A DNA stretch of 64,000 nt from Candidatus Gastranaerophilales bacterium. Its GTDB lineage: Bacteria; Cyanobacteriota; Vampirovibrionia; Gastranaerophilales; Gastranaerophilaceae. Below the pieces are notes generated by a model. That model did not search any database. It was not told the origin of the DNA and saw nothing but the letters and a program-made list of their open reading frames with translations. Shown one piece after another: positions 1,273-62,915 of the stretch (its first letter is position 1; each line of letters opens with the position of its first letter). Where the stretch lies: the NCBI GenBank assembly GCA_016282705.1, contig JAEELO010000001.1, forward strand, positions 1 through 64,000, written 5' to 3'. Position numbers and translations under genes: made by a program.

Positions 1273-2400
1273 TTACGAAGGTAACTCATCATTATCCGAG
1301 AATAATTTTAATTGACCTTTTGATGCTTCATAAATTGTTTCTGTTGCCAACGCAACATAATTTCTGTATTTCTTTTTCTTTATTCTTCTATGGTCTATCA
1401 ACTCTTGTACTTTAGTAAAATAGTCTTGCATGTGTCTTATTCTGCTTATTTTATCTTCATTTAACCACTGTAAAAACGGTTTATTACCTTTCTGAGAGTT
1501 ACAAGCACTATGCATTGACATATAATTAGAAATGTCATCGTGATTATTTTCGATATCATATGCAATTATATGGTCAGTATTTGCTACAGATGTTGAGAAA
1601 AATCTAAGTGCAATATCATATGAATTCCAATTTTCATTGTATTTATTTTTTCCGGAATACTTAACAATCCAAGCGGAATTCATATCTGCTGAAGTAGGGA
1701 AAGTTTTAGCTATTTTTTGTAATTTTTCATATTTATAAGGATTTCTTATTTTGATTTTGCTTATTCTATCTAAAACAATTTTACGACGGAAAGGAGCTTC
1801 AGAGTTATTACGTTTAATTAATGCTACCAATTTACATATTTTTTTATTTAATACTTTTTGTTCATCAGCCGGTAATGTTCTTGCCAAAGCACGCATTTTA
1901 TTAACAGTTTTCATCTGTGCCTTTTGCAAAACAGGGAGTTTTTTATCTCTTAATTGAACAACCAAAGTTCTTATATCTTTTGAATTCCCAGGTGTTTTAG
2001 ACAGATTTACCAGTTCATTATAAACACTTTCTTCAACAGGACGCATATATTCTGTATACTGACCTATATAATCAAGATACTCTTCCGGATTTAATACATA
2101 CAAATCATTTGCAATTTGATTATATCTGTTAAGATTAATCATCTTTTTACCGCATGCAGGACATGGTATATCATTAAATCTGGATACTTGAAAATCTCCT
2201 GATTTTTCTTTCAATCTTTTTAAATCGGAAGAATAAGTTCTTCGCTTTGAAGAAGTAAAGTTTAAAGGATAATAAAAAGCATTACTAAACTGCACGCAAT
2301 CCTTATTTTCTGCAATATTGCGTACATTGCTTACTTCCTTTTCATTCTTCTGGATACGGTTATTTACTATCGGTAAATAACCCACTTTCGATATTTGCAT
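1273..2400 (-). CDS. HNH-nuclease-like protein with N-terminal leader and a long insertion
   Basis: This 375-residue protein shows an HNH/zinc-finger nuclease signature. A CPAC pair (C80, C83) is followed far downstream by NTDHIIAYD (D276-H277), N292 and then MHSACNSQKGNKPF (H297, C300, N301, K304). The second part matches the C-terminal half of an HNH domain (DH, then Asn, then H/C-x-x-CN-x-x-K). In ordinary HNH proteins the first Cys pair lies a few tens of residues before the DH; here about 190 mostly helical, Lys/Arg-rich residues intervene. The N-terminus is an Asn-rich leader beginning MQISKVG and reaching NFTS at 47-50, similar in style to leaders on other proteins in this window. There is no signal peptide or membrane segment. 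The gene converges with fusA and is divergent from the gene at 2728. Fold assignment is moderately sure; substrate and role are unknown. Confidence 0.65.
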   Translation of the reverse strand: MQISKVGYLPIVNNRIQKNEKEVSNVRNIAENKDCVQFSNAFYYPLNFTSSKRRTYSSDLKRLKEKSGDFQVSRFNDIPCPACGKKMINLNRYNQIANDLYVLNPEEYLDYIGQYTEYMRPVEESVYNELVNLSKTPGNSKDIRTLVVQLRDKKLPVLQKAQMKTVNKMRALARTLPADEQKVLNKKICKLVALIKRNNSEAPFRRKIVLDRISKIKIRNPYKYEKLQKIAKTFPTSADMNSAWIVKYSGKNKYNENWNSYDIALRFFSTSVANTDHIIAYDIENNHDDISNYMSMHSACNSQKGNKPFLQWLNEDKISRIRHMQDYFTKVQELIDHRRIKKKKYRNYVALATETIYEASKGQLKLFSDNDELPS

Positions 2401-2727: not shown

Positions 2728-4419
2728 GTGAAAATATCTCCAGTAGATAGACAAATAAATCAAAATAACAATATGAATAAATCTCAGTCCCGTTCCTTTA
2801 ACGGTGCTGGTGATGCTGCTTTTAACATGCTTGATAAAGCATTTGGAGTTCTTGATAAAAATGCAATGATTCAGGTTTCTTTTGTAGATACGGTTTCGAC
2901 TAATATACCAAGAACTCTGGTAGACCTAAAAACAGGGTTGGCTGCCGCATTTGAAACTTGCCGTCGTGAATTTTCCGGTCTGTTTGTAAACTGTTTAATG
3001 CCCGGTCTTGTAGTAAAAGCAATTGCGACTCTATTACCAAAATCAAAAGAATTAAAAGATACAAATGTTGCGGGTTCATGGGCAAACGGAGCATCAATAG
3101 AAAGATTGGGTGTATTATATAAAGAAGCTCAAAAATCCGGTACCGGCAATGTCATGAGAAATTATATAGAAAGCGCTGTAGGTTCTCTTGAAGGACTAGA
3201 CGGTACAACATGGGTTAGATATGCAGATAGGGCTGCAGATTCCAGATACAAAGAGGCTATTACAAATTTAACAAATGCAGTTTCTGCTACAGGAAAAAAC
3301 AAAAAATTATTGTTAAAAAAGGCACAATCTCAGCTTGCCAGTGTTACAAAAGCAGAAAGTGTATTAAGAGCCGGTAAAAAACCTCAGGCTAATTTGGAAG
3401 AAACTCTTAGAGACATTGTTGATATGGGTTCAAAATATTCAACTGTCAGAGAACAAACTCTTTCAAAGCTTGGCAAGGCCGGACAGAAAGATGTCAAAAA
3501 TAAAGTATCTGAAGCCATTGATAAATACGGTTCTTCTTTGAAGAAATTTGTAAATATGAAAAGTCTTATTGGTATGGGACTTGTAATAGGTATTGCAGTT
3601 AGTGTACAGACAATTAACAGAGCAATTACAAGAAAGCAGTTTAAAGCCGAAGGCGCACCAATATATAAGGATTTTGGTAAAAAAGATACAACCCAAAAAA
3701 TGGACGAAAATCAAAAAAAGAAATTCTGGGCCAAAAAGATTTTATCGGCAGCAGGCATGTACGGTCTTGCTGCTACATCAATGATGAAAAAACCGTCATT
3801 AGGCATGTTCCAGTTCTCGGGAATTTTCCCGACAATGGATCAATGCCGATGGATTGCAGCATCAACTTTTGCAAGCAGAATGCTTGGTGCGGAAGATGAT
3901 AATGAACTTAGAGAAACAACGGTTCGTGATTTGGCTTCATTCTCCGGCTTATATTTCCTTGGAGATTATGTAAAAAAAGGTGTGGCATCAGGAATTGAGA
4001 AACTTTCAAGAACAAAGAAAGGTGCTAAACTCCTCGGTGAAAACGTAGTATTATTAAATCGTAAAAAAGTAATTGAAAAACCTGTAATAGAAAAAGGTGC
4101 ATCGTTTGCTAAAAAAGCGGCTGCAACAATAGGATACAAATCAAAACAATTCGGTAATTGGATAAAAAATACCGATTTAAAATCTGCAGCGGAAGTTTCG
4201 AGTACTAAAGTAAGAAATATGAGAAATCTTTGCCGTGTTGCAGATATTGCATTCTCGGTTATGATGCTTGGTGTATTGCTTCCGAAATACAATCGTTCAG
4301 TTACTGAGAAAAAAGTAGCAGCAGCCAAATTAAAAGAAGAACAAGAAAAACAAGCCAATCTTTCATTATTCCGAAAAAATAATATCTCGGAAATATTTAA
4401 AAATATGATTAATATTTAA
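2728..4419 (+). CDS. Lineage-type membrane protein with SFNG leader (paralogue of 54573-56243)
   Basis: A 563-residue protein of unknown function, starting at GTG (2728) with AAAGG about 11 bases upstream. The N-terminus is MKISPVDRQ followed by an Asn/Gln/Ser-rich stretch and SFNG at 23-26; there is no Sec signal. Hydrophobic stretches include LFVNCLMPGLVVKAIATLL (about 92-110), LIGMGLVIGIAVSVQTI (about 281-297) and a C-terminal segment around VMMLGVLLP. The latter is followed by a charged Lys/Glu-rich tail. It shares collinear blocks with the protein at 54573-56243: IPRT near residue 60, GLDGxxW near 154, GMGxxxxxxxSVQxINR near 285 and ASRxxxAxDxNELRE at 381-396. I recognise no enzyme motif. 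It is probably an inner-membrane or envelope protein restricted to this lineage. Confidence 0.75.
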   Translation: MKISPVDRQINQNNNMNKSQSRSFNGAGDAAFNMLDKAFGVLDKNAMIQVSFVDTVSTNIPRTLVDLKTGLAAAFETCRREFSGLFVNCLMPGLVVKAIATLLPKSKELKDTNVAGSWANGASIERLGVLYKEAQKSGTGNVMRNYIESAVGSLEGLDGTTWVRYADRAADSRYKEAITNLTNAVSATGKNKKLLLKKAQSQLASVTKAESVLRAGKKPQANLEETLRDIVDMGSKYSTVREQTLSKLGKAGQKDVKNKVSEAIDKYGSSLKKFVNMKSLIGMGLVIGIAVSVQTINRAITRKQFKAEGAPIYKDFGKKDTTQKMDENQKKKFWAKKILSAAGMYGLAATSMMKKPSLGMFQFSGIFPTMDQCRWIAASTFASRMLGAEDDNELRETTVRDLASFSGLYFLGDYVKKGVASGIEKLSRTKKGAKLLGENVVLLNRKKVIEKPVIEKGASFAKKAAATIGYKSKQFGNWIKNTDLKSAAEVSSTKVRNMRNLCRVADIAFSVMMLGVLLPKYNRSVTEKKVAAAKLKEEQEKQANLSLFRKNNISEIFKNMINI

Positions 4420-6217: not shown

Positions 6218-6964
6218 TTAAAATTTTGCATAAACCAAACTTAAACTATCGGCTGAATTCAATAATTCATTTTTGTCTACGGTAATTTCTTTTGAAGTGT
6301 TCCAAGGGTCTATCAGTGTCACCGTATTTTCATCTACATTCTTTATTGTATAACCGTGATTTTCTCTTAAACCGCATATTGAATTATCCAGAACACCTAA
6401 TGTCATTGCATATTTATCGGGAAATCTTTCAAATTCTTTAAAGGCACAAATAATCTCTTCAGGAGTTTTAGAAACCGTTATAAAATCGGCATTGAACATT
6501 TTAAATATATAATATGGATTTCCGCCATCTTTTATACTGTATTTCGTTATTCCTTGAGCTTGAATTAGCTTTTCGGTTGCAAGTTCTAACGCAAGCATAT
6601 CATCATCTCCGACGGAATAATCATAATTTTTGCTATTTATACTTAAATTATTTTTTTCAAATTCATCTTGCGGAATATTATACGTTTCGCAAGCATACGG
6701 GAAAGTAACATCTATGCTTCCGTCCGTACGAGCTTTTATACTGTCTTTTATTATATCTGCTCCGGCATCGGTATAGGACATAGCAAGAACACCTGAAATT
6801 AACCAGCAATCTTCATAATTTCCCTGATATACTGTTTCATCTATAATCCCGTTAATTCCTTTTTCTTTGACTTTGCCAAGATTTGGATAATTTTGATTTG
6901 AATTATTTTCTATATTTTCTATTTTTGATTTTATTGATTTAATGCTGTCCAGAAAATTTAACAT
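6218..6964 (-). CDS. Calpain-like (family C2-type) cysteine protease
   Basis: A 248-residue protein carrying the hallmarks of a compact calpain catalytic domain. YQGNYEDCWLISGVLAM (C53) corresponds to the QGxxGDCWLL nucleophile motif. ENHGYTIKNV (H203) corresponds to the calpain HAYxV motif. TLIDPWNTSKEITV (219-232) corresponds to the NPWG segment that supplies the third catalytic residue; here Asp replaces the usual Asn and Asn replaces the Gly. The first 45 residues are a polar, Lys/Asn-rich stretch with no signal peptide. It stands alone, between proS and the terminator of the two-component operon. Calpain-like proteases are sporadic in bacteria and their substrates are mostly unknown. The family call rests on three correctly ordered motifs. 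Confidence 0.72.
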   Translation of the reverse strand: MLNFLDSIKSIKSKIENIENNSNQNYPNLGKVKEKGINGIIDETVYQGNYEDCWLISGVLAMSYTDAGADIIKDSIKARTDGSIDVTFPYACETYNIPQDEFEKNNLSINSKNYDYSVGDDDMLALELATEKLIQAQGITKYSIKDGGNPYYIFKMFNADFITVSKTPEEIICAFKEFERFPDKYAMTLGVLDNSICGLRENHGYTIKNVDENTVTLIDPWNTSKEITVDKNELLNSADSLSLVYAKF

Positions 6965-10466: not shown

Positions 10467-13082
10467 TCAGATTTTTTCAATAGATTGTTTAGTACCTACA
10501 ACAGTAAGTACATATGGTTGATTAAAATATTTATTTGCCGTTCTTATAATATCTTGAACAGTTACCGATTTAATTATCTGCGGATATCTGTCAATAAAAT
10601 CATAATTTCTTCCGCTTATTTCCAAAGCATTTATCATAGCTGCTTTATCCATATTTGTTTCCATAGATAATACAAAATTTCCCAATAATTTATCTTTAGC
10701 TTCCGATAATTCTTTATAGGTAACAAATTCTTTTTTTAATTTTTCAATTTCCTGCATCATTCCCTTTTTTGCGACTTCTGCATTTTTCGGATTAGTTGCA
10801 ATATATATGCCAAATACTCCTTTATTAACATTTGCCGTAAAAGCAGAACCGATTTGATATGCAAGTCCTTGTTCATCACGTAAATGAGTAAATAATCTTG
10901 AACTCATACCTGAACCAAGAATAGAATCAATGATTTGCAATGATGCCCAATCTTTTTCATTTGTTACACCGTCAGTCAGCCAGCCGAAAAGTATCCAATC
11001 AGCTTGAGAATCTTTTGCAACTTTTACAGTTTTGTTTTTTTGAAGTGATTTATACTTATATTTGTAGTCAGAAAGTTGAATTTTTTCTTTATTGCTGTTT
11101 GTTAATATTTTTGAAAAATAATCTATAAATTCCTGACTGTTTACATTGCCGTTAATAGATATTACTACATTCTCGGCAGGAAAAATATTTTTATAGAAGT
11201 TTACAACATCTTCTTGAGTTATTAACGGAACTGTTTTTTCGAGGACTTTACCGGTATTTCCGTATGGAGTTCCTTCCCATAATGCTGTTTTAAACTCGTC
11301 AAAAGCAATGCCTTCCGGAGTATTTTTTATATTTTTTATGGAATGCATTTTGTCTGCTTTGACTCTTTCTATATCAAAAGGGTCTAATGATGCTTTTTTT
11401 GCAACTTCTTCAAATATATCAAGTGCTAAATCTTTTTCATTCTTTGTAAACTTAGCAGCTAATCCGAAAGAATCTCCTTTTGAAAACGGAACTATGCGAA
11501 TTCCGTTTTCCTCTATAAGTAAGGAAAGCTCCTGATTTTTATATTTATGAGTCCCTTTTAACATTGTTTGAGCTGTTATATCAGCTGTTCCGGGAATTTT
11601 TTCAAGATTATTACCGCCTCTTGATGCCATTTCCATAGCAATTATATCGTTAGCAGTATTATTTGTGATTATTAATGTTGCGCCATTTTCAAGTTCATAT
11701 TCAACAGTATCTTTATTCTTACTTACAACTTTTGCTTGATGTTTTTGTGGTTCTTCTTTTTTCTCTATTTTTGATTTTCCTTTATCAGAAGGCATTACTA
11801 TGGATATTACAGCTGAATCTTTATTCAAATAATCTCTTATAACACGTTTTATATCATTTATAGTAACTTTATTTATATTTTCAAGGTAATTTTTATAATA
11901 ATCCGTGCTGTTTGTTATTGTTGCTGTATATCCTATTTCCGCTGCAATATTCGAAATTGACTCTCTTGAATAAAAAGTATCTCTTTCAATTATATTTTTA
12001 GCTTTTTTTAATTCATCTTCCGTTAAACCGTTTTTATATAAATTATCAATTTCATCAAATATAGCATTTTTAAGTTTTTCTAAATCTTCTGTTGTATAAT
12101 TTGCAGATATATAGAAGATAGAATCATCTTTCATTGAGGAATGAGAAGCGGATACAGTATGAACTAATTGCTTTTGTTCTTTTAAACTTTTATATAGACG
12201 AGAAGATTTACCTTCTCCCAATATTGTTGCAAGTACATCCAATACATATGAATCTTTATTTGTTACAGGGTGGCATCCTTTAAAACCAACCAAAATGAAG
12301 CCTGTTTCCACATTTAAACTGACTTTCTTTTCAATTTGAGATGAAGGTTTTTTATCTAATTTATATTCCGGAATAAGTTTTCTGTCCTTGACATCAACAT
12401 GTTTATTAAATTTGCTTTTTACGGCTTCCAAAGCTTTTTGAGTATTAACATCCCCTATGATTACAGTTGTCATATTTTGCGGCACATACCAGTTATCATA
12501 AAAATCAAGAATCTGTTCTCTGCTAATGGTTTCTATTACATCATTTGTACCTATTACATCACGTTTATACGGGTGAATGCTGTAAAAACTTTTAATCATA
12601 TTTCTGTATAAAGTAGTAGAAGGTCTGTCATTATTTTTGGCAATTTCTTCTATTACGACTTTGCGTTCTTTTTCAAGTTCTTTTCTTGGAATTAAAGGAT
12701 TTTGAAGCATATCTGAATGATATTCCAATGCTAAATCAAAGTATTGAGAAGGAATTAAAATGTAATAATGCGTGAAATCTTTGCTTGTAGCTGCATTAGT
12801 AATTGCACCTTTTGATTCCAATACTTGATCAAACTCATTTGCAGGATGTTTTGTAGTTCCTTTAAAAAATAAATGTTCCAAGAAATGAGCAACACCGTTA
12901 TTTTCATCGGTTTCATTAATTGAGCCTGTTTTAATCCAGGTATCTATAATAACAATCGGATTATCATGTACTTCTTTTATAATAACGCTTTGACCGTTAT
13001 CCAATTTATAACTTGAACAGTCAGCAGCATAAGATACTAAGCCTGTAAAAAGTATAATAACGGCTAAAAAAATTTTTTGCAT
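10467..13082 (-). CDS. Secreted or periplasmic M16 (pitrilysin-type) zinc peptidase, double domain
   Basis: An 871-residue member of peptidase family M16 with two M16 repeats. Residues 1-20 form a Sec signal peptide (MQKIFLAVIILFTGLVSYAA). The active-site motif HFLEH (H66, E69, H70) is intact. The third ligand is probably in VVIEEIAKNND, about 76 residues on. The second half (from about residue 450) is the inactive partner domain with the R/Y region LGSGMSSRLFTHLRDEQGLAY. A second M16 protein at 58273-61116 lacks the signal peptide. The gene is first in a minus-strand run with pilZ, kinase and HD-GYP genes. A TATAAT on the minus strand (13117-13122) lies upstream. Confidence 0.92.
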   Translation of the reverse strand: MQKIFLAVIILFTGLVSYAADCSSYKLDNGQSVIIKEVHDNPIVIIDTWIKTGSINETDENNGVAHFLEHLFFKGTTKHPANEFDQVLESKGAITNAATSKDFTHYYILIPSQYFDLALEYHSDMLQNPLIPRKELEKERKVVIEEIAKNNDRPSTTLYRNMIKSFYSIHPYKRDVIGTNDVIETISREQILDFYDNWYVPQNMTTVIIGDVNTQKALEAVKSKFNKHVDVKDRKLIPEYKLDKKPSSQIEKKVSLNVETGFILVGFKGCHPVTNKDSYVLDVLATILGEGKSSRLYKSLKEQKQLVHTVSASHSSMKDDSIFYISANYTTEDLEKLKNAIFDEIDNLYKNGLTEDELKKAKNIIERDTFYSRESISNIAAEIGYTATITNSTDYYKNYLENINKVTINDIKRVIRDYLNKDSAVISIVMPSDKGKSKIEKKEEPQKHQAKVVSKNKDTVEYELENGATLIITNNTANDIIAMEMASRGGNNLEKIPGTADITAQTMLKGTHKYKNQELSLLIEENGIRIVPFSKGDSFGLAAKFTKNEKDLALDIFEEVAKKASLDPFDIERVKADKMHSIKNIKNTPEGIAFDEFKTALWEGTPYGNTGKVLEKTVPLITQEDVVNFYKNIFPAENVVISINGNVNSQEFIDYFSKILTNSNKEKIQLSDYKYKYKSLQKNKTVKVAKDSQADWILFGWLTDGVTNEKDWASLQIIDSILGSGMSSRLFTHLRDEQGLAYQIGSAFTANVNKGVFGIYIATNPKNAEVAKKGMMQEIEKLKKEFVTYKELSEAKDKLLGNFVLSMETNMDKAAMINALEISGRNYDFIDRYPQIIKSVTVQDIIRTANKYFNQPYVLTVVGTKQSIEKI

Positions 13083-54572: not shown

Positions 54573-56243
54573 TTAGTTAAAATCTTTAAATATAGGATTG
54601 TTATTTTCTAATTTTGATAAAGTTTTATTATTTTTTATAGGACTGTTTTCATCAATTTTATAGTCCATTTGGTCTTGGGCTTTTTTCTTATTGTTTAAAT
54701 ATCTTGTAACTGCGATATTTAATTTTGCTATGCCGACGCCTAATACAAAACCTGAATACAAGTAGCCTGCAAGCTGCGATGCACCTATTTTTAAAACCTT
54801 AGTTTTTGTTGCTGCATCAGCATTCTTAAACAATTGAGAGAACTTCATCATCTTATTTCCCTTCATTATTTCTCCTGCTTTAGGAAGAAGAACTTCATCA
54901 AAGGATTTTACAGATGCTTTTGTTAACCATTGTCCTGCATACTTAAGACCTTTTTTAGCACCGGTTTGTGTAACCGGGTTATTAATTAATTCTTTGCCGC
55001 CGATTCCTCTTGCAACAAGTTTAGATACCATGCCGCCAAGTATGAGCCAGTTAGTAAACCCTAATGTATCTTTTATTACTGATTCTCTGAGTTCGTTTCC
55101 GTCTCTTGCTGACATAAATCTTGAAGCAATAGTTAAACCATACAAGAACTTAAATTGATTAATTGTCGGAACTTTACTGTTAAATTGAATATTAGATAAT
55201 AAATCTGAATATTTGCCGATAGTCCTTAATGCTGCGGCTGGAAAAGCAACGCCTAAAATCATTTTTAAAGGTTTATATAATTGGAATTTCTTTTTATTAC
55301 CTTTTACTTCAGTTTCATTATTTGTTTCTACTCCGACAAATCCGTCTTTACCTGTTCTTAGTTTGGTTAAAAGTCGGTTTATAGGCTGAACAGATATACA
55401 TAACGCAGCACAAATTCCCATCCCAAGAGCTGTAGCAGCTGTCTTATTTTTCTTTAACGCATTGATAAATTTCGGTAAATTTTCTTTTGTTTGAGTAGTA
55501 AAAGAATTTGAAACAGCAACGGCATTATCAACAAGTTCTGAGAAGCTTGCCTTTATTGCTTTATTTGCTTTACAGGGTGCGGGAATTATAAAAGAAGCCT
55601 GTGCACCTGTATCTTTTATTACTCTGCCTACTATTGACGCTTTAAGTGTCTTTATTTCTTTTGCAATAGATTTTTTATTTGCACCTGTAGCTGATGCTAA
55701 TTGTTTTGTTTTTTCTGCAAGTAACACAAGACTGTCAGTGATTTCTTTTTTAGAAGTCTGTGAAATATGTCTCCAATTTGAACCGTCAAGTCCTTGAACA
55801 CGATTTACAAAACTGCTTAAAAATTTCTTTTGCTCTCTGCCTGAACGTCTCCATATTTCAGCCATTGTATCTATTGTGCTTCCGCTTGCAAAAATATTTT
55901 GAGCTTTTATATTAAATTCATTATTAAATTTTTTAGATATTCCTGTTGCGGCACCTAATCCGATAAGTCCTACGCAAGTATGAATAAGATTACTTGTTCC
56001 TTCTCTTATACCGGTTTCAATACCTGATTGAGGACCTCTGTTTTTCCATTCAATACGAGTCCTCGGAATAACCATAGAACACATGTCAACAGCACAAGCA
56101 CCAATAGCCGGACTATCATTTAATGTCCTTAATAGTAAAATACCGGGACCTTTAAACGATGGATTTTCGCTATTATGTTTGGCTTGTAATTGATTAATAT
56201 TGGAATTTTGTATTCTATCTATCATGCGTTTTGTCTTTTCCAT
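54573..56243 (-). CDS. Lineage-type membrane protein with SFKG leader (paralogue of 2728-4419)
   Basis: A 556-residue unknown protein. It begins with an Asn/Gln-rich leader ending SFKG at 29-32, followed by GPGILLL. It matches the protein at 2728-4419 block by block: VDxxSxxIPRT near 55, GLDGSNW near 147, GMGICAALCISVQPINR near 280, VPTINQ and ASRFMSARDGNELRE (373-387). Several hydrophobic segments suggest a membrane protein; the tail is charged and Asn/Lys-rich. The start could be ATG 56243 or ATG 56225. The two paralogues lie about 50 kb apart, so the duplication is dispersed rather than tandem. Confidence 0.75.
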   Translation of the reverse strand: MEKTKRMIDRIQNSNINQLQAKHNSENPSFKGPGILLLRTLNDSPAIGACAVDMCSMVIPRTRIEWKNRGPQSGIETGIREGTSNLIHTCVGLIGLGAATGISKKFNNEFNIKAQNIFASGSTIDTMAEIWRRSGREQKKFLSSFVNRVQGLDGSNWRHISQTSKKEITDSLVLLAEKTKQLASATGANKKSIAKEIKTLKASIVGRVIKDTGAQASFIIPAPCKANKAIKASFSELVDNAVAVSNSFTTQTKENLPKFINALKKNKTAATALGMGICAALCISVQPINRLLTKLRTGKDGFVGVETNNETEVKGNKKKFQLYKPLKMILGVAFPAAALRTIGKYSDLLSNIQFNSKVPTINQFKFLYGLTIASRFMSARDGNELRESVIKDTLGFTNWLILGGMVSKLVARGIGGKELINNPVTQTGAKKGLKYAGQWLTKASVKSFDEVLLPKAGEIMKGNKMMKFSQLFKNADAATKTKVLKIGASQLAGYLYSGFVLGVGIAKLNIAVTRYLNNKKKAQDQMDYKIDENSPIKNNKTLSKLENNNPIFKDFN

Positions 56244-58240: not shown

Positions 58241-58276
58241 AAAAGCGGCGTAAATTCGTTTATGCCGCTTTTTTAC
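58241..58276. terminator. Bidirectional terminator with TTCG tetraloop
   Basis: AAAAGCGGCGTAAA-TTCG-TTTATGCCGCTTTT forms a 14-pair stem with one G-U pair. A run of A before it and T after it serves the plus-strand pilin gene and the minus-strand M16 gene, whose stop lies in the T-run. Confidence 0.85.
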
Positions 58277-61116
58277 TGCAAATTTAATGCTTTTAATGTT
58301 TTTGTACTTGCAACAATAGATGTAATCGGCGGATTTTGGAATACATAATTTGCCGTTAATCTTATATCATCAGCTGTTATTTTTTCAATAGCATCAAATA
58401 ACTGCTGATAATAATTAATTCCATATAAAGATGTTTTAGCGGAACCATATGATGTTGTAATATCCGAATTGGTTTCAAGCATATCTAAAATATCAGATTT
58501 ATAACTCATTTTTGCATTTTCAAGTTCTTTTTGTGATACATTCTGTGTTTTTAACAGATTAACATTATGTTCAAATCCTTCAAGTGCTTTTTGTACATTT
58601 TTAGGTGAACCTTCATTCGGATTAGGACTGTCCGTTGTAGTTCCGATATTTAATCTGATAGTTTCACAATCATTTTCGTCGCATATTGATGAACTTACGT
58701 GATATGCCAATTTTTTATTTTCTCGAAGGTCGGAAAATAATCTTGATGACATACTTCCGCCTAATATTTTATTTAAAATATCTATTTTCACTATATCATT
58801 TATGTTTTTGCTTCTTTTATATTTATATGCTTGAATAATTTCAGCTTGTGCTTTTTCATCTGCTGCAGCAAGAATTTTTGTTTCTGTGTTTGGTTTATAG
58901 ATATAGTAATTAGGCGAATGAATTGTATTGAATTCTTTAAATAACGGCAATTTTGATAATTCACTGTTTAAAACGGTTTCATTATATTGATTTTTATCAA
59001 CAGCACCTGTATATATTGCCGAACATTTTGCTGTGGATAATATTAATGAGTATGCATTTCTTATATCTTGAAGAGTTAATGCTTCAAGTTCTTGTAATCG
59101 TTTTTCTTTTGATTCATATATCCTTATTTCCGGATATAATTCTCTGTTTAATTTATCTGCTGCCGAAATTTCTTCACTATTAATATTATCTCTTATAACG
59201 GATTTTGCTCTTTCAAATTCTTGCTCTGAAAAATTAGGATATAAAAGCATTTCATTTATCAATTGTATTACGGTTGAAATATCGGAAGATGTAAAATCAG
59301 CAGAAACACTCATTCCGTTATGGGTTGATATTGTATTAATTCCTATATCATTAGAATTAAGAATTGCATTATATGTATCTTTATTTTTAAATTGTGTACC
59401 TCTGTTCAAAAGTTCATTTAATACCAAAAATGCAGGAGAGGAAATACCTGTTAATTCATCTGACTCCATATTCAACCATAAAGATGCTTTAGCACTTTCA
59501 TTTCCCGAAATAAACATTGTTTTAATATTATTTGCCAATTTATATTGTTTAATATTGCTTGTGATTTCATTAACTGATTTTTTTGCATCTGTAGGAACGG
59601 CACCAAAAGATACTGAATTTGATTTATTTATAACGGTATTATAATTCTGTTTTATACTTGTTTCTGTTGATGTCTTTTCATGTGAAACACACATTGATAC
59701 TTTATTTAAATCTAAGAATTTACGTGCAGTATCAGATATATCTTGCGGGGTAATGTTCCTTATATTATTTAGAGATTCATAAAAATAATTATAATCATTA
59801 TCTAATGCCATCTGCGTTAATGCACCGTTCAGTGCGGAGGATGTTTCAGATATTGAATTAACGGAATTAATTGCACGTTTTTTATAAATATCAACTTCAT
59901 TTTGAGATGGTGGTATATTTGAAATTTTAGTTATTTCATCATATAAAATTTTTATTACGTCTTCTATTTGTTTTTCGGGGGCATCTGCTGTAATTAATAT
60001 TGCACTTGCTCCATCAACTTTATTTTGCATTCTTTCCGTATATATACTTGCTGATAATCCGTACTTATCAAGTCTTTTTGATAAATCGGATCCGCTGGAG
60101 GTTAATACCTCCATTAATGCAGATAATTTATCACATTCAGCTTTCGATGTGCCTTCAGGAACGGCAAAACCCATTGTAACAGATGCTGTCGTCGCATTTT
60201 GCCTTACAATATCTGTTCTGATAGGTTTATCGTTATATTTAATCGGTTCATGATGTCTTTGATTAATTTTTGAATAATCATTTTTCTTATTAAAATATTT
60301 AGAAACCAGTTGTATTGTTTCATTTGTATCAACATCACCCGTTATAACGGTAACGGCATTATCCGGTGTATACCAAGTATTATAATAATCTAAAACCTTA
60401 TCTCTGTTAAAAGAATTTATATTCTCTTTTGTTCCGAGAATAAAATTAGTGGAATTTGTATTAACATTAAATAAATTCTTTAAAACAAGGCTTGTTGCAA
60501 CATCAGACGGTATGTCTTTGTACATATCAATTTCTGATTTTACAGGTTCTTTTTCTTTTTCAATTTGTTCAACAGGGAATGTCGGAAACTGAGTTTGCAG
60601 AGCATTAAGTCTTATTGCTTTCTCCAGTGAATCTTTATTAAGTAATTGCAGACTCAAGAAATAGTCAGTTACACCAAAATTTGTTGAAGCATTTGTATAT
60701 GCACCAATATCCGAGACTTGTTTATCGTATTCTCTTGGTGCTAAATCTTTACTCCCGTTAAATAAATTATGTTCTATAAAATGACTTATTCCTCTGATAT
60801 CCTCAGTTTCATTTAAAGAACCTACATGGTAAGTTGTTTTAACTACAGTGGCACCTTTTTTAGGTGCAATAATTACACGTTGTCCATTGGCAAGTTGAAA
60901 TACACTCGCTTTCTCTTTTAATCCGGGAATTGGTATTTCACCCAATTTTGTATATGAAATAGGTAAGTTTGAATTAATTTGAGATTGTCCCGCAAAATAT
61001 GCAGGTGACATAGCATTTTTTTGCGTGTTAATATTTCCCTGTTCTTTGTTTTTTTCGTTTTTAACTTGAACAGGAATCATCTTAACATTATTTATGTTAA
61101 TTGGTGATATTTTCAT
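58273..61116 (-). CDS. M16 (pitrilysin-type) zinc peptidase with SFxG-type leader
   Basis: A 947-residue double-domain M16 peptidase. The catalytic motif is HFIEH (H112, E115, H116), with the third ligand probably in VKSEIDMYK near 195. The second, inactive repeat runs from about 510 and has LGGSMSSRLFSDLRENKKLAY. Instead of a signal peptide it starts MKISPININ and continues Asn/Lys-rich to SPAYFAG (37-43). A similar tetrapeptide recurs at the domain junction (SNSVSFGAVPTD, about 495-506). Compare the signal-peptide-bearing M16 at 10467-13082. Location and substrate are unknown; a role in processing leader-bearing proteins is speculation. Confidence 0.88.
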   Translation of the reverse strand: MKISPININNVKMIPVQVKNEKNKEQGNINTQKNAMSPAYFAGQSQINSNLPISYTKLGEIPIPGLKEKASVFQLANGQRVIIAPKKGATVVKTTYHVGSLNETEDIRGISHFIEHNLFNGSKDLAPREYDKQVSDIGAYTNASTNFGVTDYFLSLQLLNKDSLEKAIRLNALQTQFPTFPVEQIEKEKEPVKSEIDMYKDIPSDVATSLVLKNLFNVNTNSTNFILGTKENINSFNRDKVLDYYNTWYTPDNAVTVITGDVDTNETIQLVSKYFNKKNDYSKINQRHHEPIKYNDKPIRTDIVRQNATTASVTMGFAVPEGTSKAECDKLSALMEVLTSSGSDLSKRLDKYGLSASIYTERMQNKVDGASAILITADAPEKQIEDVIKILYDEITKISNIPPSQNEVDIYKKRAINSVNSISETSSALNGALTQMALDNDYNYFYESLNNIRNITPQDISDTARKFLDLNKVSMCVSHEKTSTETSIKQNYNTVINKSNSVSFGAVPTDAKKSVNEITSNIKQYKLANNIKTMFISGNESAKASLWLNMESDELTGISSPAFLVLNELLNRGTQFKNKDTYNAILNSNDIGINTISTHNGMSVSADFTSSDISTVIQLINEMLLYPNFSEQEFERAKSVIRDNINSEEISAADKLNRELYPEIRIYESKEKRLQELEALTLQDIRNAYSLILSTAKCSAIYTGAVDKNQYNETVLNSELSKLPLFKEFNTIHSPNYYIYKPNTETKILAAADEKAQAEIIQAYKYKRSKNINDIVKIDILNKILGGSMSSRLFSDLRENKKLAYHVSSSICDENDCETIRLNIGTTTDSPNPNEGSPKNVQKALEGFEHNVNLLKTQNVSQKELENAKMSYKSDILDMLETNSDITTSYGSAKTSLYGINYYQQLFDAIEKITADDIRLTANYVFQNPPITSIVASTKTLKALNLQ

Positions 61117-61262: not shown

Positions 61263-61781
61263 ATGACAAATCTAATAAACTTATATCCGCAATATAGAAT
61301 AAATAAAGACAGAAGACAACAAAATATCCCTGTAGCAGTTGAACGCCGTTCCGGTAAAGACAGAAGAAGTCAGGATAGAGTTGCCTTGGATTCTCAATTA
61401 ACAAAAGATATTTATTCCGTAAAAAGCCAAGTTGCAAAAATAGAATCTATGGCTCCAAGGTTGTTTGCAGACAGAGTTACTACACAAGCTCCGAATTTTG
61501 CATCTATGAATAATTTTACTCAGGATCAACTGGTAAAAGAGTCTAAACCGGATATGTCAGCTATTGCAAGACAAGAAGCTAAGCTTCAAGATAAATCTTC
61601 TACTATATTTACTATTGGTGTATTATCAGCAGCAATTGCTGCTGCGATTGCAGTATCATTTATGGGAACTACAGGTGCTGTTATTGCATTGGGAACCGGT
61701 TTATACATCGGCGGAAGAATTTTAAAAACCATTATTGCAAAAGAAATTAAAGAAGAAGAGCAGGTCAAAAAATCAAAATAA
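61263..61781 (+). CDS. Unknown membrane protein with RRxxxDRR motif
   Basis: A 172-residue protein. The soluble N-terminal part has VERRSGKDRRSQDRV (about 26-40), a basic motif of a kind I associate with short cytoplasmic segments of unknown function. QAPNFASMNNF (about 76-86) recalls the leader tetrapeptides of neighbours. A C-terminal pair of hydrophobic segments (IFTIGVLSAAIAAAIAV and TGAVIALGTGLYIGGRI, about 118-155) precedes a Lys/Glu tail. Function unknown. It ends 1 base before the convergent gene. Confidence 0.65.
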   Translation: MTNLINLYPQYRINKDRRQQNIPVAVERRSGKDRRSQDRVALDSQLTKDIYSVKSQVAKIESMAPRLFADRVTTQAPNFASMNNFTQDQLVKESKPDMSAIARQEAKLQDKSSTIFTIGVLSAAIAAAIAVSFMGTTGAVIALGTGLYIGGRILKTIIAKEIKEEEQVKKSK

Positions 61782-62834
61782 TTATTGCTTTTTCTCTTTA
61801 GTTGTTTTTTCTGCTGCTCTCTCTGCTAAATATGTAGAAATAAATGGTATTATACCGTAATATACAGCTGCGAAGATTAAAGTTGGTCTTAATATGTTTA
61901 TGCCGTCTATATATTTTCCGAGTTTTGGATTATTTTTATGTATTTGTGCAAATTTTTCCGTAATATTTTTTGTGCTGTTTTTAATTATTTTATCAATGCC
62001 ATAACCTGCTGAAATAGAAATTCCTGTTGATATTAAATTATTATATACAAGAGGTTTTTTACGTTGAGAAGCTATTTCTTTATTTTTGAAAGTTCTGTGC
62101 GCAAAAGATAATGAAAGCAGGGCATCTGTTGCTATAGTCATGTTTCTTGCAATATCTTGATTATTAGAGCTGTGTTTTATTGCAAACTTTTGGAAAGAGT
62201 CATTATTTAAAATTTTACCGATACCTTTTGCCGTATAATTTGATAATGAGCCTTTAAATGATGTCTTATTATTTGTATTAAAATCATTTGAGAAAATATT
62301 ATTATATTTATTTTCATGCTGTGGAGTTTTAATTTTATTTTTACTTGTTTTATTAAATAAAAAGTCCATAAATACAGGAATTAAAGCAACTGTCATTATG
62401 GATTTCGGAATAGCGGTGATTAACCCTGTACTGAGCTTTAATAATTGTGAGGCAAATTTATAATTGTTTGATTTTGTAAGGTCTTTTGCACCTGCTTTTA
62501 ATGTATTAATTGTTTTTTTAGACAAAAATTCGGAAGGATTTTTATCAATTTTTTTAATAGCATTTTCAACAGGCAGGGCAACTGCTTCAACCATTGCAAA
62601 TTTAATCAACCCTGACGTTATTGAATTAGTTATTGCATATTCTTTATTTTCTTTTTTAACATCAGGAGTCAGTGCAATAGCTGCCGGTCTTACAATTGAT
62701 GCCATAGCAAGCGAGGTTCCGGCAATAAAACTTGCACCGTGTTCAGAGATTTTTTCCAATCCCTTTAATACGGCTTTATTATTGTATATACTGCCGAAGC
62801 TTTGGGAATTTAGATTATTGCCGTTTATTTTCAT
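61782..62834 (-). CDS. Unknown membrane protein with SFGS leader
   Basis: A 350-residue protein from ATG 62834, which has AGGTG five bases upstream; the longer frame from 62867 lacks such a site. It begins MKINGNNLNSQSFGS, a short form of the leader. Hydrophobic segments include SFIAGTSLAMASIVRPAAIAL, LITAIPKSIMTVALIPVFM and LIFAAVYYGIIPFISTYL near the C-terminus, followed by a Glu/Lys tail. A second leader-like motif (NNKTSFKGSLS, about 198-208) lies in the middle, as if two leader-bearing units were joined. No family recognised. Confidence 0.65.
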   Translation of the reverse strand: MKINGNNLNSQSFGSIYNNKAVLKGLEKISEHGASFIAGTSLAMASIVRPAAIALTPDVKKENKEYAITNSITSGLIKFAMVEAVALPVENAIKKIDKNPSEFLSKKTINTLKAGAKDLTKSNNYKFASQLLKLSTGLITAIPKSIMTVALIPVFMDFLFNKTSKNKIKTPQHENKYNNIFSNDFNTNNKTSFKGSLSNYTAKGIGKILNNDSFQKFAIKHSSNNQDIARNMTIATDALLSLSFAHRTFKNKEIASQRKKPLVYNNLISTGISISAGYGIDKIIKNSTKNITEKFAQIHKNNPKLGKYIDGINILRPTLIFAAVYYGIIPFISTYLAERAAEKTTKEKKQ

Positions 62835-62915
62835 ATTGCACCTATTACAAGAAGACAACAAAAACATACAAAAAGAAATAATATATTAAAACAAATTACA
62901 TTTTATTTTATAATC

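Follow-up and report, generated by a model that had tools for sequence, protein, structure and literature searches.

A fused M16B peptidase of the Gastranaerophilales with an Asn-rich leader and, at the junction of its halves, a motif common to unrelated proteins of the order

The window considered here, 64,000 nucleotides of contig JAEELO010000001.1, comes from a genome whose proteins and relatives point to a member of the Gastranaerophilales, gut bacteria with kinship to the Cyanobacteria, and encodes at positions 58273–61116 a fused M16 peptidase. The family of the enzyme is well known, and the enzyme a variant within it; what sets it apart is an invariant motif at its junction, which ties it to unrelated proteins. 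In our best reading it is a member of a class of leader-bearing proteins, with the domain-entry motif of that class on each of its halves. On balance we lean towards the view that this is a fused M16B enzyme with a leader and a domain-entry motif, the motif being read by a factor of the cell that sorts or processes the class.

Identity of the peptidase

The following features of the peptidase are referred to below.

58273–61116, minus strand: fused M16B zinc peptidase of the leader class, 947 aa (ORF list, Pfam, structure model)
60970–61116, minus strand: Asn-rich disordered leader, residues 1–49, MKISPININNVK... (pLDDT < 50)
60988–60999, minus strand: YFAG, residues 40–43, unlikely to be the leader motif (lines up with YxxG of the orthologues)
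59680–60954, minus strand: N-terminal M16 half, YfmH-like, residues 55–479 (Pfam, NCBIfam, model)
60769–60783, minus strand: HFIEH zinc site, residues 112–116 (orthologue conservation)
60532–60534, minus strand: zinc-ligand Glu195 (invariant in orthologues)
59593–59661, minus strand: disordered junction linker, residues 486–508 (pLDDT < 50)
59599–59616, minus strand: SVSFGA junction motif, residues 501–506 (orthologue conservation)
58288–59586, minus strand: C-terminal M16 half, YfmF-like, with Arg792/Tyr805, residues 511–943 (alignment, model, NCBIfam)

The ORF holds two M16 plus M16_C repeats (Pfam, E = 5.6e-25 and 4.8e-50). H112, E115 and H116 of the HxxEH site and the distal Glu, E195, are invariant among 30 sequences, and in the orthologue alignment Y805 of the Arg/Tyr pair of the C-terminal half is invariant and R792 nearly so. 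The ORF is real, and because these residues are so preserved the single-chain M16 enzyme that it encodes can be taken as catalytically complete. The HxxEH...E logic is shared with the YfmH/YfmF (YmfH/YmfF) M16B pairs, which include AlbF/AlbE; unlike those pairs, however, the present enzyme is fused in one chain, carries a leader and a junction motif, and stays below the curated NCBIfam cut-offs (112 bits against 250 for YfmH over the N-terminal half, 114 against 285 for YfmF over the C-terminal half). With FusC/PqqL, the fused single-chain exceptions within M16B, it has in common the two halves per polypeptide, and PqqL is among the sequence matches, but FusC/PqqL are periplasmic whereas the present enzyme has no Sec signal and has a conserved SFxG linker. 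As one chain it departs from the two ~50 kDa chains of M16B, and in the model its disordered linker of ~23 aa differs from the ~70-aa helical hairpin that separates the halves in M16C/PreP. A literature search found no connection of YmfH/YmfF with EF-P. Most simply, the enzyme is a peptide-degrading M16B living alongside the rest of the leader class; judged from its family, short unfolded peptides are likely candidate substrates.

The genome contains three M16 systems: this one, a second fused enzyme, and an adjacent unfused ORF pair on contig C10, outside the window.

10467–13082, minus strand: second fused M16 with Sec-like signal, without the junction motif; control (Pfam, motif check)

The preliminary description had counted two double-domain M16 peptidases in the window, one of them with a Sec signal, and this count holds, the ORF 10467–13082 beginning MQKIFLAVIILFTGLVSYAA. 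Both other systems were checked for the junction motif, and it is absent from the Sec-type fused enzyme as well as from the C10 pair. Neither ORF of the C10 pair, which we label cytosolic, has the leader.

Junction motif and leader

A second SVSFGA had been noticed between the two repeats, and it is indeed there, inside the linker; this linker and the leader are the only disordered stretches in the structure model. The pattern [VIL][SNAP]F-x-[GASNKR] is found at the junction in every orthologue in which the junction is intact (54/54; ~31–68% identity, several families of the order), and F504 is at least 90% conserved across orthologues in an otherwise unconserved linker. A looser form of the motif occurs in ~2% of shuffled linkers, a figure that is descriptive and not a p-value, since the patterns were fixed after inspection of the sequences and the sequences are related. 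Model and orthologues agree in placing the junction motif in a disordered chain ahead of a folded domain, the setting that defines the class.

That an Asn-rich leader takes the place of a signal peptide is also borne out: residues 1–49, which begin MKIS, are Asn-rich and predicted to be disordered (pLDDT < 50), and a hydrophobic Sec-type signal is absent from the N-terminus of the 947-aa ORF. In the genus, orthologues begin M-[K/N/E/Q]-I, and most of their leaders are rich in Asn, alike in kind and unalignable in sequence. The earlier assignment of YFAG as the leader motif, on the other hand, is probably mistaken. YFAG aligns with a separate YxxG element (VYPAG, TYTTG, VYPTG), where its F replaces another residue; in the nearest orthologue, 68% identical, TTFGEN lies ~16 residues upstream of the YFAG position in the alignment, and an F-G leader motif is present, upstream of the YxxG element, in 33 of 55 orthologues. 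For these reasons YFAG in the present enzyme is likely a chance match. The copy at the junction is better conserved among the orthologues than the copy in the leader.

The motif in unrelated families

In the order, three or more families unrelated to one another have the same motif where a folded domain starts. One of these is encoded by the neighbour of the peptidase.

62790–62801, minus strand: N-terminal SFGS of ORF 61782–62867 (motif listing)
62250–62261, minus strand: internal SFKG of the two-repeat, membrane-protein-like ORF 61782–62867 (S192, F193, G195 at least 90% conserved)
2794–2805, plus strand: SFNG just ahead of the first helix-like segment of ORF 2728–4419 (F-x-[GAS]-type motif in nearly all orthologues read)
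56148–56159, minus strand: SFKG of ORF 54573–56243, a paralogue of 2728–4419 (motif listing)
2251–2262, minus strand: NFTS within the leader of ORF 1273–2400 (HNH-type), possibly a copy of the motif (sequence reading)

ORF 61782–62867 consists of two repeats with the motif ahead of each, and across 18 relatives the internal copy is conserved amid a gap-ridden linker. Its model is disordered at residues 1–14 and 164–195, with a helix from 196. In G032 (MNIKAINNQLNTYNTQSSNRICFSGN) and G028 (MQVNRIQPNMSARNKSNVTFAG) the second half of this family also exists as a separate gene with a complete leader and motif, and the start of the G032 gene falls at the place equivalent to the internal motif. An internal copy can thus match the leader of what was formerly a unit in its own right. 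Between the peptidase and this gene lies a 172-aa ORF (61263–61781) with no Pfam match, whose place is conserved in G013 and G019. The three genes are syntenic in some members of the genus; the neighbourhood differs elsewhere, and we dropped an operon argument for that reason.

In the 2728–4419 family the motif abuts the domain in nearly all orthologues read, and the leader before it is unalignable. The paralogues 2728–4419 and 54573–56243 occur order-wide and have the motif where the domain starts, together with a conserved IPRT element. Among divergent GlgA-like enzymes, ten out of ten have leader and motif (L287–L296; a second group, L297–L316, mostly 5'-cut, is left out of this count), the motif lying 13–17 residues ahead of a conserved Glu of the domain, whereas the canonical GlgA of the order is leaderless, begins directly at the domain and is without the motif (the start codon of L260 was miscalled by the script).

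For the lineage as a whole, we compared a strict form of the motif with shuffled sequences. The sample consisted of stretches from six genomes of the order, with 1381 ORFs. Of these, 44 have the motif within their first 80 residues, where 200 shuffles gave a mean of 14.3 and a maximum of 24; in the bodies of proteins of the same sample the count is 15, with 9.7 expected and a maximum of 17. Sister orders have no enrichment (3 of 350 ORFs, 3.6 expected). This comparison was used in place of a loose, composition-based count of leaders (F 62, L 50, K 54, order genomes summed), which was rejected because L or K in the place of F gives similar counts; single leaders are not safely callable by such a filter. 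Leader calls were made from in-frame translations only, a scan of DNA patterns being mostly noise; start codons were assigned by script, nearly all compared genomes are drafts, and the calls of leader and motif rest partly on patterns written after the data had been viewed. The occurrence of the motif across unrelated proteins suggests that the order has a signal for sorting or processing that is as yet undescribed; a literature search found no paper that describes such a leader.

Resident or trimming enzyme

The peptidase had been proposed to be either a resident of the place to which leader-bearing proteins go or the enzyme that trims them. The former half of this proposal has gained indirect support, as the peptidase has its type of leader and, more strongly, its motif in common with many unrelated proteins of the lineage and not with the two other M16 systems of the genome. 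For the latter the support is coarse. Matches above ~310 bits to this M16 subtype are found only in the order, other orders giving weaker ones of up to 231 bits, so that in the proposed comparison across genomes subtype and leader do coincide in one order; such co-restriction is, however, a single evolutionary coincidence. At the level of genomes the coincidence may falter: G345 (98% complete) and G036 (82%) have clear leader ORFs (MKIYAADNQNNKANFTG and MKIPAIQNDNNNYLKQQNFTG; MKISSLKQPLRSFKG), and in these two, as in G301 (near-complete, like G345), the M16s recovered are all Sec-type or split ones, with none of the window type, an absence that is uncertain as these are drafts. No convincing leader was found in G301 with the pattern used. 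G284 fell below the threshold of the subtype search, yet has a full-length candidate of the window type. Leader-rich genomes without this type of M16, the case that the preliminary description had named as counting against the trimming idea, may therefore exist in G345 and G036, with the same reserve about drafts, and, if the absence holds, leader function does not depend on the window-type M16. Mitochondrial and plastid processing peptidases and PreP have the M16 fold in common with the present enzyme and act on N-terminal targeting peptides, which they process or degrade, but the short disordered linker is unlike the long helical hairpin of PreP and the leader is only a putative substrate. 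Taking these points together, we consider it very improbable that the enzyme trims or destroys leaders in the manner of MPP/SPP or PreP in organelles.

A domain-entry signal and its alternatives

Our preferred explanation would run as follows. Proteins of the order with an Asn-rich disordered leader and the short motif hydrophobic-[S/N]-F-x-[G/A] would form one class, the motif lying in a disordered chain, usually a few residues ahead of a folded domain. In the peptidase the motif would precede the second half, and often the first, since the halves behave as separate units, each equipped with an entry signal, as in the 61782–62867 family. A cellular factor might recognise the motif and sort or process the proteins of the class, and the peptidase would then reside where the other members do. 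More weakly, cleavage at the junction might yield a two-chain enzyme resembling the ordinary M16B heterodimers; processing there is plausible from the sequences, because breaks of the chain are tolerated at both internal sites, that of the peptidase and that of the 61782–62867 family. Two points sit uneasily with this explanation: members of the GlgA-like and RelA/SpoT-like kinds would need cytosolic substrates, so that a location outside the cytosol is not obvious for them, and the better conservation of the junction copy over the leader copy is expected also from a purely structural role.

This latter point, with an isolated bridge at 504 in the model, is what a structural hinge of the M16 subtype would draw on, its likeness to the leader motifs being coincidental. 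We regard such a hinge as decidedly unlikely, given the pLDDT below 50 at the motif, its absence from both other M16 systems and the presence of the same motif, with matched conservation, ahead of unrelated folds. If instead the motif served for docking, as a short linear Phe-Gly motif to which a putative scaffold or receptor binds without cleavage, its disordered setting, its tolerance of position and the two copies in some leaders (L220, L173, L075:15660) would be accommodated, but docking would not call for a place so narrowly confined to the vicinity of domain starts; we hold this possible, though doubtful. A cleavage site, at which a protease (in one form the enzyme itself) removes the leader and cuts the junction to leave a two-chain M16B-type enzyme, would make sense of a motif that in several families lies within ~3–17 residues of where the domain begins, at a point where the chain can be interrupted: in M16B the two halves are as a rule separate polypeptides (PMC12731061), as in the C10 pair, and the halves of the 61782–62867 family occur as separate genes. 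Any motif in a linker would, however, fit the same geometry, and the residues flanking F are variable, and cleavage seems to us unlikely.

More broadly, we suggest tentatively, and at somewhat less than even confidence, that this non-photosynthetic sister lineage of the Cyanobacteria has a sorting or processing signal of its own, found throughout the order, in which an Asn-rich leader ending in hydrophobic-Ser-Phe-x-Gly is read at each entry to a folded domain and serves divergent paralogues of housekeeping enzymes, with the peptidase among them and itself dependent on this signal for its maturation or sorting. Plastid transit peptides with FGLK are disordered N-terminal extensions, rich in hydroxyl and amide residues, with a Phe-Gly element. 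The leaders of the order are like them in the disordered extension and the Phe-Gly element, and unlike them in being bacterial and Asn-rich, with the motif at domain boundaries and also internal. If the suggestion is true, the signal would tell where the divergent copies of housekeeping enzymes work in the cell, and, in a lineage related to the Cyanobacteria, would offer a bacterial comparison for N-terminal signals of the organelle type. The invariant motif at the M16 junction makes an otherwise invisible signal testable.

Other leader-bearing proteins

Divergent GlgA-like glycogen synthases with a leader and SFxG are encoded at L075:15660–17921 and in L289–L296; many of the genomes concerned possess a canonical GlgA without leader as well. 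Divergent relatives of FtsH (AAA/M41), TreZ/GlgB (GH13), GlgC (nucleotidyltransferase) and RelA/SpoT, at L207:764–3916, L220:638–2983, L038:7918–9969 and L210:9658–10743, also bear leaders and make up a second set of enzymes of the housekeeping type. Leaders are also found on HNH proteins. Three leader ORFs contain CxxC (1273–2400, L116:1891–3306 and L224:900–2792), the first two of which match HNH in Pfam; L116:902–1855 resembles these ORFs and is without a leader. At L075:4026–5887 there are four small ORFs in tandem, three beginning MLNSINN(S/T)SPSFGA and the fourth MRTESLSFGA, which look, from their sequences, like a recently expanded leader family. The ORF 6218–6964 of the window, with QGNYEDCWLISG, is calpain-like in appearance.
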